This document shows, piece after piece, positions 60,817-64,000 of a DNA stretch of 64,000 nucleotides (positions are counted from its first letter, which is position 1; each line of letters starts with the position of its first letter). The translations under genes were made by a program, and so were the position numbers. The notes under the pieces are model-generated. The model was given only the letters and a program-made list of their open reading frames with translations. It searched no databases and was not told the origin of the DNA. The stretch spans positions 5,062,217-5,126,216 of the forward strand of contig OX639992.1 in NCBI GenBank assembly GCA_951828515.1. Reading direction: 5' to 3'. Source of the DNA: an uncultured Poribacteria bacterium. Its GTDB lineage: Bacteria > Poribacteria > WGA-4E > WGA-3G.

Positions 60817-62460
60817 TTATTCGTTTTTCGTGAGCAATGGTGTCAGGCTGTTCTCACGCGGTACATACAGGTAGGCGTTCCTGCCAGTGAAGTATTGGGC
60901 GTAGACGTTCTGCCAATCGCTATTTGTCAGTTTCCACCGTGGTGCGGGACCGATTTTAAAATAGACAATATCCGCTTCTTGGAGGTTCTGAAAAGGATAA
61001 TCGCCGATCGGCGCACCTCGGTGTTGAGACACGAAAATAACGGCGTTGTGGATGCCTTGCTCTGCTACCATCGGCGGTAGTTTCTGATAGACAGGACTCC
61101 AATTCTGGTACACTTTCCCAATACGGACATAACTCCACACGATGTTGACACTGAGCAACAGAAAACATATCCCGACACCAATCGCAAGTTCTCGTCTTTG
61201 GAATGGTCTGAACCGCTCATAGAGGATAAATATCCCCCGTGCCGCCAATGGGATGAACCCAAGAAATGTTGACTCGGTGTAATAACGGGCGTTTACAGGC
61301 GTGAATCCCCACGTCGAACCCTCAAAGTAGAAGAAGGCATAAAGCAGTAAATTGCCCACAAGTAAGGCGAGACAGAACACATCGTATCTGTTGTGTGAGC
61401 GGTGGAAGAAGGGTATAAACACCAGGCACCACGGCAGAATTAGCGGTACAAAGGCGATGAACCACGTTACCGATAATTCTATCTCCTTCAATAAATTGTG
61501 GTGATAACTCCCCCAACCGAGCGCGTTAAAACTGATGCTTGGAAGGATATGTCGCCAGGTTCTTTCGATCGCCCATGCCGGTGTAAAAATAAATGCCTGT
61601 TCAAGATCAGGTTCATAACCTTCTGTGCGAACGCCGAAACCAATTTTGTCGTAGGGCTGCGCGACCGTATGCGTGAACATGTATGGACTTTCCGTGAAGT
61701 GTGTGTTCCACGCCATACATACGCCAAGCATCACAATGAATGGAATAAAGAAGAATCCTAACCGTTTCATTGTGGAAGGCAACGCTTGCACCATTTCGTG
61801 TCGTTGTTGCCATTGGGTGAACAGATGGTAAATTGTTAACCCCGCGCCGACAACGCCAAAAACGACCGCCGAGAGTGGGCGTGTATTGAACGCATATCCG
61901 AGCGCAAACCCTGAGAGAAGCGGGTAACCGATCCGCGCGAGAAGAGAGGCTTCGCTTTTACAATTCAGGGTTTTGAGAAGTGTGAGGAGATAGAGCGAAA
62001 GGTAGAAACGACTCACAGGCTCGCTGAACCATGTTGAACCCATCCCAAGTGTTGCTGGCGAAATGAGCGCGAGTACCGCAGCGATGAGGGCGATACCGTT
62101 ATGGATGTCTCCATATATCTCTTTCACAAAAAGGTAGAGAAGCAGCAATGCACCCCCCGTTGCAAGGGCTGGAATCAGCCACGGTGCGCTAATAAATACG
62201 CCGAACATCAGCATCAAGGCATTTCCGAATGGATATTTTGAATACCATTTACCGTTTAGAACGTTGATATGCGGTGAAGAGGAGAACCCGTGTTCCGGTG
62301 GTGCAGGCACCGAAAGTTTACCCTCTGAAAACAGTTTAGCTTGGAATAGATACGAAACAGTGTCTGGCTCAAAGTAGGAGAACTGGAAGTATATACCACA
62401 TAGGAGTACCGATAGCAGTAAACCGAGTATAGAGATGATATAAATAGGTTTAATCTTCAT
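60817..62460 (-). CDS. Multi-spanning membrane protein, GT-C glycosyltransferase-like
   Basis: This 547-residue protein has about ten to twelve transmembrane helices. The first is followed by the loop FEPDTVSYLFQAKLFSEGKL (about 30-50), whose Glu-x-Asp is the acidic motif of GT-C enzymes (ArnT/PMT/GT39-like). GLRMGST-type extracytoplasmic helices (TLGMGSTWFSEPVSRFYLSL) and a soluble C-terminal tail (about 450-547) follow. It would transfer a sugar from a polyprenyl-phosphate donor to an envelope acceptor, which matches the lipid-linked sugar made by the GT2 at 9478-10200, though they are far apart. It could also be an uncharacterised DUF2029-like protein. Confidence 0.65.
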   Translation of the reverse strand: MKIKPIYIISILGLLLSVLLCGIYFQFSYFEPDTVSYLFQAKLFSEGKLSVPAPPEHGFSSSPHINVLNGKWYSKYPFGNALMLMFGVFISAPWLIPALATGGALLLLYLFVKEIYGDIHNGIALIAAVLALISPATLGMGSTWFSEPVSRFYLSLYLLTLLKTLNCKSEASLLARIGYPLLSGFALGYAFNTRPLSAVVFGVVGAGLTIYHLFTQWQQRHEMVQALPSTMKRLGFFFIPFIVMLGVCMAWNTHFTESPYMFTHTVAQPYDKIGFGVRTEGYEPDLEQAFIFTPAWAIERTWRHILPSISFNALGWGSYHHNLLKEIELSVTWFIAFVPLILPWCLVFIPFFHRSHNRYDVFCLALLVGNLLLYAFFYFEGSTWGFTPVNARYYTESTFLGFIPLAARGIFILYERFRPFQRRELAIGVGICFLLLSVNIVWSYVRIGKVYQNWSPVYQKLPPMVAEQGIHNAVIFVSQHRGAPIGDYPFQNLQEADIVYFKIGPAPRWKLTNSDWQNVYAQYFTGRNAYLYVPRENSLTPLLTKNE

Positions 62461-62488: not shown

Positions 62489-62517
62489 TTGACATTCGTT
62501 TCTCAATGCGGTATAAT
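62489..62517 (+). promoter_or_regulatory. Perfect sigma-70 promoter of the histidine leader
   Basis: TTGACA (62489-62494) and TATAAT (62512-62517) are exactly 17 bp apart. The start would be near 62524, giving a transcript leader of about 296 bases before the HisZ-like gene. Confidence 0.8.
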
Positions 62518-62584
62518 ATCATTAAATTCAATTAAAATCACTGGTTTTTTATAGCAAGTTCCAACTTGCAAGCGATGCGAAAAA

Positions 62585-62638
62585 ATGTGTAACGTTATTG
62601 CATTTAACATTCATCACCATCATTCGGTCCACTTCTGA
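62585..62638 (+). CDS. hisL: Histidine-rich leader peptide (HisL-like)
   Basis: ATG at 62585 to TGA at 62636-62638 encodes MCNVIAFNIHHHHSVHF, with four consecutive His codons (62612-62623) and a fifth at 62630-62632. Five His in 17 residues is far above chance and resembles the his-operon leader peptides of enterobacteria in kind, not in sequence. The stop codon overlaps the 5' side of the antiterminator. The ribosome site is weak (AAGCGATGCGAAAAA). It is a sensor peptide: stalling at the His codons would report low charged tRNA-His. Confidence 0.72.
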   Translation: MCNVIAFNIHHHHSVHF

Positions 62639-62701
62639 GTAGAGCGGATGAGGGGAATATAAATAAATATTTTTGATACGAAGCAAGTCTAACTTGTTTG
62701 G

Positions 62702-62786
62702 ACCCTGGTAAACGAGCCGCTCTCCTCCGTGCCGCATTGTCGGCGCGCGTGAGAAAAAGAGCAAATTGTTTACTGGGTTTTTTTTT
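62702..62786 (+). terminator. Attenuator terminator with nine T's
   Basis: ACCC (62702-62705) pairs with GGGT (62775-62778), GTAAAC (62708-62713) with GTTTAC (62768-62773) and GCTCT (62719-62723) with AGAGC (62758-62762), with an inner GCCG/CGGC stem (62731-62744). Nine T's follow (62778-62786). CCGCTCT (62717-62723) can instead pair with AGAGCGG (62641-62647), and the two pairings exclude each other. Confidence 0.65.
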
Positions 62787-62819
62787 GACTTTCGACCGAA
62801 CCGCAAGGAAAATTAAAAT

Positions 62820-64000
62820 ATGGAAAAGTTTGATAAACCCACCGGGACGAACGATTTTTTACCTGGGCAGATGGCTCAGCGAAATTTTGTTGAAAATATC
62901 GTTCGTGAAACCTTTGAAACCTATGGATACGCACAGGTTCAGACCCCGTTGTTTGAATCCTTTGCACTATTATCCGCACAATCCGGCGAAGAGATCCGTC
63001 ACAAGATGTTCACGTTCGTCGGTTCGGATAGAATAGATTATGCCCTAAGACCTGAGTTGACCGCACCCGTCTGCAGACTCATTGCGAATGGGGACCTAAA
63101 ACACCTCCCCTATCCATATAAACTCTACTACATCGGGCAATGTGTCCGACAAGAACCGATTTCCGATGGTGCGGAAGTAAAGCGGGAATTCCGACAGGCA
63201 GGCGTTGAACTCATTGGACCGGCTTCCGCCCACGCAGACGCTGAAATTATTACGATTCCGATCCGAATCCTTGAGAAACTCGACATCTCACAGACAAAAT
63301 TAAGAATTGGCAACACAGGGGTCTTCCGTGAGATTTTCAAGCAAGGTGCACTTGATCCGAAAGACCAAGCAGAAATGATTTGGGACATTGACCACCTTGT
63401 AAGCCTCCGTAACGAAAGCGAACTTTGGGATCTGGAAACACTGCGGGATGCGCTTAATATGTTGCGTCGTTTACAAGGATTTGACTACCAAGGTACTTAC
63501 AAGATTGGGACCGCCTCGATTCAGGAATTAACCGAAAGCACTGCCCCCGCTTTTGCGGAGAAGTTACCGACAATTGCTGAGGAAACCTATAAGGCGAGAT
63601 GGCACCGTTATTTCAATGTTTCTGAAGAGATCGCACAGTGTTGCATAGATGTTTCAAAGATTTGTGGCGATAAGAACACTGTGATGACAGCATGGGAAAC
63701 GCGTCTTGGGGATGCCGCACAAGCCGCACGTCAAGAACTTCTCGCCCTCTGCGACTGTTTGGAAAACTATGGTATTACAGATTTTGAAATCAATTTGGGT
63801 ATCACGCGCGGATTCGATTTCTATACTGGTACGGTTTTTCAGATCGAGTTATCCGAGAAACGTTTACCGCTTTGTGGCGGTGGAAGGTATGATAACTTAA
63901 TCGCCTCTTTCGGCGGTCCGTCGATGCCTGGTGCTGGGTTCGCGTTTCAATTTGACGCGCTTGTAGAAGCCTTTACTGACACGAACAAGGCAACTGTCAA
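62820..64000 (+). CDS. hisZ: HisZ-like (HisRS-paralogous) protein, cut by the window end
   Basis: About 393 codons are present and the gene runs off the window. It is a class II HisRS-type fold: FDKPTGTNDFLPGQMAQRNF, YALRPELTAPVCRLIA (motif 1/2 region), EFRQAGVELIGPASAHADAE (motif 2), ITRGFDFYTGTVFQIELSE and LCGGGRYDNLIASFGGPSMP. In HisRS motif 2 would read GRYREF and motif 3 GLER. Here these positions are EVKREF and FQFDAL, so I favour HisZ, the regulatory subunit of ATP phosphoribosyltransferase, over HisS. The histidine leader upstream supports a biosynthetic role. The start ATG is preceded by CCGCAAGGAAAATTAAAAT. Confidence 0.65.
   Translation, partial: MEKFDKPTGTNDFLPGQMAQRNFVENIVRETFETYGYAQVQTPLFESFALLSAQSGEEIRHKMFTFVGSDRIDYALRPELTAPVCRLIANGDLKHLPYPYKLYYIGQCVRQEPISDGAEVKREFRQAGVELIGPASAHADAEIITIPIRILEKLDISQTKLRIGNTGVFREIFKQGALDPKDQAEMIWDIDHLVSLRNESELWDLETLRDALNMLRRLQGFDYQGTYKIGTASIQELTESTAPAFAEKLPTIAEETYKARWHRYFNVSEEIAQCCIDVSKICGDKNTVMTAWETRLGDAAQAARQELLALCDCLENYGITDFEINLGITRGFDFYTGTVFQIELSEKRLPLCGGGRYDNLIASFGGPSMPGAGFAFQFDALVEAFTDTNKATV

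Follow-up and report, generated by a model that had tools for sequence, protein, structure and literature searches.

The histidine operon of Escherichia coli and Salmonella is headed by a leader peptide with seven tandem His codons. This his leader (RF00514) combines the codon run with alternative RNA stems and an intrinsic terminator (PMC9413887). Predicted His leader peptides also precede hisZ and hisS* in Bacilli (PMC2965389; for the B. cereus group also PMC9413887) and his operons of three Firmicutes lineages (PMC9413887); amino-acid attenuation as such was surveyed in 2010, to go by the citation in PMC4833913. A second strategy is the His T-box of Firmicutes and Actinobacteria, which controls his and hisS genes by the charging of tRNA-His through a terminator/antiterminator pair. 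The locus described here lies at the end of a window (the whole stretch of DNA analysed, 64,000 nucleotides) from Candidatus Poribacteria, to which all named hisZ homologues belong as well. It shares with the enterobacterial leader the tandem His codons, the alternative stems and the intrinsic terminator, but has four or, in diverged relatives, three His codons in tandem; it would govern hisZ-hisG-hisS, with hisD located elsewhere in the genome and devoid of a leader. The Bacilli elements likewise place a His-codon leader ORF and a terminator before hisZ or his operons, but they belong to another phylum and the operon here is hisZ-hisG-hisS; the likeness is one of layout. From the His T-box it differs in having a leader ORF and no T-box match. 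No match to RF00514 was obtained in the window up to E = 10 or in five relatives at gathering score.

It is very likely, judging from the sequence and its comparison among relatives, that this element is a ribosome-mediated transcription attenuator which sets hisZ-hisG-hisS expression by the supply of charged tRNA-His. It joins a known class as a well-supported member. Attenuation of this type is classical, leaders of Bacilli hisZ had already been predicted, and what appears to be new is its occurrence in Poribacteria. The preliminary description of this DNA, which knew such attenuation mainly from enterobacteria, therefore understated the prior work in Bacilli and other Firmicutes. Its remark of not having seen the like described for such an organism agrees with our search of the openly readable literature on Poribacteria with attenuation or histidine biosynthesis, which gave no report of the element.

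The first gene of the operon (62820..63998 and past the window end, + strand) was assigned by Pfam and gene context. Its product, 478 aa at full length in the genome, is HisS-like (Pfam tRNA-synt_His) and shows no anticodon-binding domain in Pfam. The protein runs into the window edge, and on 393 of its 478 aa NCBIfam TIGR00443 scores 226 bits, below its cut-off of 271.65; TIGR00442 (hisS) is likewise under its cut-off on the same 393 residues. Because both models stay under their cut-offs, the name hisZ (ATP phosphoribosyltransferase regulatory subunit-like) rests on the gene context and the absent anticodon-binding domain. The next gene encodes a HisG of 259 aa without HisG_C, i.e. the short type (Pfam), and the third a complete HisS with HGTP_anticodon, which is the true HisS of the genome and distinct from HisZ. 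A HisS-like protein thus adjoins a short HisG and is separate from the true HisS, in line with the HisZ-like gene proposed earlier, and the products of the three genes together make and charge histidine. The neighbour on the other side (60817-62460) is transcribed in the opposite direction, so the terminator described below cannot serve it.

A sigma-70-type promoter (62489..62517, + strand) precedes the leader, with TTGACA at 62489-62494 and TATAAT at 62512-62517 separated by 17 bp; it matches the consensus at 12 of 12 positions and was rightly called perfect in the preliminary description. Transcription would start near 62524. Nearly all relatives with complete upstream sequence have TTGAC[A/T] and TATAAT at a distance of 17 or 18 bp before the leader. 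The leader ORF (MCNVIAFNIHHHHSVHF; 62585..62638, + strand), read directly from the ATG at 62585 to the TGA at 62636-62638, consists of 17 codons and has, exactly as first noted, four consecutive His codons and a fifth close by (starts at 62612, 62615, 62618, 62621 and 62630). The run of four, CAT CAC CAT CAT (62612..62623, + strand), is the regulatory one and at the same time the 5' arm of a protector hairpin. No Shine-Dalgarno-like sequence was found before the leader ATG, which is not rare here, since a Shine-Dalgarno-like 4-mer stands before 22 of the 38 long ORFs of the window. A perfect palindrome, GCAAGTT-CC-AACTTGC, lies at 62554-62569 ahead of the ATG and is related to a CAAG...CTTG hairpin further downstream.

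Homologues of hisZ were found in 32 other genomes of the genus and in 48 named records, two sets that share most of their members; 52 loci were aligned (32 close homologues and 20 diverged). The tandem His codons, four in 32/32 close relatives and three in 20/20 diverged ones, were never lost in these loci, in which HisZ identity falls to about 60%. All four are His in every close homologue, with one synonymous change among them. The close group keeps HHHHSVHF, the Val codon being lost in frame in two genomes; among the diverged loci, quite different N-termini lead into HHHS(V/I)H or HHHP(V/F)H. Codons 2-9 are highly variable in the close group, yet no indel there breaks the frame. Besides an in-frame codon loss, the 32 close homologues show one indel, a frameshift at the stop. 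In one locus with the leader at the contig start (L098) the stop TGA is changed to TGG and the predicted peptide continues through segment 2 (HHHHSVHFWVERMRVNK), with all stems kept, and in another (L113) the stop codon is shifted. The role that the preliminary description gave to the His codons is supported for the tandem run. A regulatory part for the fifth codon is unlikely: stalling at it would place the ribosome over segment 2, and the position is replaced in three genomes, by Asp in two and by Tyr in one.

Segment 2, the 5' arm of the antiterminator (62637..62654, + strand), reads GAG-T-AGAGCGG, followed by GGGG that pairs with ACCC. Segment 3, CCGCTCTCCTC (62717..62727, + strand), is both the 3' arm of the antiterminator and the inner 5' part of the terminator. 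The pairing proposed earlier between 62637-62647 and 62717-62727 was recovered in full: AGAGCGG (62641-62647) with CCGCTCT (62717-62723), and GAG (62637-62639), which overlaps the leader stop codon, with CTC (62725-62727). Its extent had been given incompletely, as the ACCC at the terminator foot is drawn into the antiterminator too. The core, 62642-62647 with 62717-62722, is paired in 311/312 cells of the 52-locus alignment; GCGGAT of segment 2 is invariant, and positions 62717-62722 of segment 3 have a mean identity of 99.7%. Segment 3 pairs with its inner terminator partner in just 206/260 cells, so the near-invariance of its CCGCTC follows the antiterminator. Covariation in the antiterminator is confined to one changed pair, probably a single event and thus no well-supported compensatory change, because the arms hardly vary. 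Its loop contains the small conserved CAAG...CTTG hairpin (62684..62697, + strand), which RNAalifold recovered independently from the 20 diverged loci.

The intrinsic terminator (62702..62786, + strand), identified by folding and conservation, consists of an ACCC.GGTAAACGA / TTGTTTACTGGGT stem with a branched loop and nine T at 62778-62786. All pairs listed for it before were found again, namely ACCC (62702-62705) with GGGT (62775-62778), GTAAAC (62708-62713) with GTTTAC (62768-62773) and GCTCT (62719-62723) with AGAGC (62758-62762), and 62700-62786 folds at -35.8 kcal/mol. The outer stem is paired in 463/468 cells over the 52 loci and has two pairs changed on both sides, which 13/500 shuffles reach; six to nine T follow the 3:4 stem in every locus. 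Stem and T run thus lie between the promoter and the first gene, with the stem conserved. A simple terminator scan did not list 62702-62786, owing to its long, branched loop. An extra pairing of GGTCCA at the leader end with TGGACC at the terminator foot was considered and discarded, being broken in several relatives.

The earlier list of stems, correct in antiterminator and terminator, had overlooked a third one, the protector (1:2) hairpin at 62614..62656 (+ strand), in which the His codons are paired with segment 2 and which is present in the minimum free energy (MFE) structure of all 52 homologues. It would sequester segment 2 unless a ribosome were stalled on the His codons. The diverged group forms this stem as CATCATTC(A)ATCC / GGAT(TA)GAATGATG; there, 97.9% of the cells are paired over 20 loci, two pairs are changed on both sides, and the covariation score is reached by 1/500 shuffles. 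One of the compensatory pairs is a synonymous CAT-to-CAC change of a His codon, matched in the partner.

The whole leader RNA folds at -78 kcal/mol, compared with -59.9 +/- 4.6 for shuffled sequences (z -3.9; 0/200 shuffles as stable). Unperturbed folds of the 52 homologues contain the protector in 52, the terminator in 50 and the antiterminator in none. For truncated forms a ribosome footprint of 13 nt past the first A-site base was assumed. If only the RNA beyond the front edge of a ribosome at His1, 2, 3 or 4 can pair, the antiterminator, including its contact with the ACCC at the terminator foot, is the MFE structure until the 3' arm of the terminator has been made. A ribosome at His5 or the stop codon covers segment 2 in part or completely; the antiterminator is then no longer the MFE structure and the terminator forms. 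Across the relatives, the stalled state has the antiterminator in the MFE structure of 43/52 loci (missing in 9/52), and the stop-codon state, with segment 2 covered, has the terminator in 52/52. Folding of full and truncated forms, recommended in the preliminary description, thus gave the expected switch, and the geometry outlined there, with a ribosome at His1-4 freeing the antiterminator and one at the stop covering segment 2, is reproduced. In the full-length leader the terminator mostly equals or exceeds the antiterminator in stability (median difference 1.5 kcal/mol); given such close energies the switch must be kinetic, with the order of synthesis deciding, as it does in known attenuators.

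All parts of the switch, their conservation and their mutually exclusive folds are apparent from sequence and comparison; protector, antiterminator and terminator are so placed that the ribosome position selects one of them. We infer from this arrangement that the leader is translated, that ribosomes stall in it, and that termination occurs and responds to histidine. It is proposed that RNA polymerase starts near 62524 and that a ribosome translates the 17-codon leader behind the moving polymerase. When charged tRNA-His is scarce, the ribosome would stall on His1-His4 with its front edge upstream of segment 2 (62641) and melt the protector, allowing segment 2 to pair with segment 3 and the terminator foot, and the operon would be transcribed. 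When His-tRNA is ample, the ribosome would reach the stop and cover segment 2, or depart and let the protector hairpin form; with segment 2 blocked, segment 3 would join the terminator and transcription would stop near 62786.

The peptide HHHHSVHF is strikingly constant in close relatives, as might be expected if the leader ORF made a small His-rich product, for example for metal binding, and the terminator were separate and constitutive or controlled by a protein. It is, however, the nucleotides that are constant, at precisely the positions that pair with segment 2; changes within the His run are matched by changes in the pairing RNA strand, and diverged peptides (MLFFSNHHHSIHSE, MKRILYIHHHSVHS and MQTLFFTPHHHPVHA) vary freely outside that run, which makes a peptide product very improbable. 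We give slightly less credence still to an RNA that senses tRNA or a ligand independently of translation (T-box or riboswitch), with the ORF incidental. Firmicutes His T-boxes do have the same layout of an antiterminator/terminator pair before his genes (PMC9413887), but an Rfam scan found no leader, T-box or riboswitch match in the window up to E = 10 or in five relatives at gathering score. Moreover, nearly all relatives keep the tandem His codons in frame, with the stop just ahead of segment 2, and the stretch 5' of these codons, short and variable as it is, could not accommodate a T-box stem I.

Some attenuators target the ribosome-binding site of the first gene (PMC9413887), and leader translation might accordingly control the translation of hisZ, by coupling or by masking of that site, in place of its transcription. 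The T run after the 3:4 stem in all 52 loci, the distance of this stem from the hisZ start (22-540 nt) and the position of the hisZ ribosome-binding site, AAGGA, outside the structure speak against it, and we rate this as no more probable than the sensing RNA. The interval between terminator and hisZ start (62787-62819 here) differs between species in its repeat-like fill as well as in length, with the attenuator upstream constant.

The transcription attenuator favoured here, with leader, stems and terminator, precedes every poribacterial hisZ with readable upstream sequence. The preliminary description had named, as evidence against its reading, relatives with the gene but without the His codons or the stems; no such loss was encountered in the 52 aligned loci. 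A covariance model of the leader matches 56/59 genomes of the family and 0/26 genomes from nine other Poribacteria families. The three unmatched genomes of the family are explained by a broken contig or a missing locus: in G023 the contig starts 170 nt before hisG, and G022 and G032 have no match to hisZ, hisG or hisS. A second copy of the attenuator in G024 (C200:11926-12092; L156) occupies the end of a contig; the bin is 6% contaminated, and this contig probably comes from another species. Runs of four His codons elsewhere in the genome total 38; the 30 examined as loci are chance His runs with no comparable leader, and no leader was seen before hisD, trpE or leuA.

A search of 24 genomes from other Poribacteria families gave no hisZ. 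Two other families have a long HisG (HisG with HisG_C in Pfam), and three more have ORFs of 292-339 aa with the same C-terminal ending, judged to be long HisG by length and C-terminus. Since hisZ, short HisG and attenuator co-occur in one family, and hisZ and attenuator are absent from the others tested, the three go together, and a change in regulation thus accompanies one in biochemistry. Ring-shaped FISH signals, together with electron microscopy, had once led to the proposal of a nucleus-like compartment in Poribacteria; genome work of later date gave no sign of large compartments (PMC3909097). Because in attenuation the ribosome must follow the polymerase on the same RNA, an attenuator conserved throughout the family provides independent evidence, at the genome level, that the two processes are coupled. 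We consider it likely that one poribacterial family switched from a long, self-regulated HisG to a short HisG with HisZ, that the attenuator was gained together with this switch or arose alongside it, and that the strict conservation of the attenuator reflects ribosomes on nascent transcripts, against nucleus-like separation. Classical ribosome-mediated attenuation of histidine genes is hereby placed in Poribacteria, and the existing metatranscriptomes (PMC5087111) would allow a search for leader ends without culturing.

The hisZ start is also associated with a dispersed sequence. The 16-mer ACCGAACCGCAAGGAA with an ATG within 5-14 nt occurs 42 times in the genome (reversed control 0), and the 16-mer is present in 34/35 other genomes of the genus and in 0/24 genomes from other families. 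The 30 copies that were read usually end a dispersed element of about 100 nt that stops exactly at the start codon and includes the ribosome-binding site, and 28 of them precede ORFs of at least 150 aa; the element looks like a mobile 5'-UTR plus ribosome-binding site. It is found before trpE too, and hisZ in the window carries only its last part (62793-62819).
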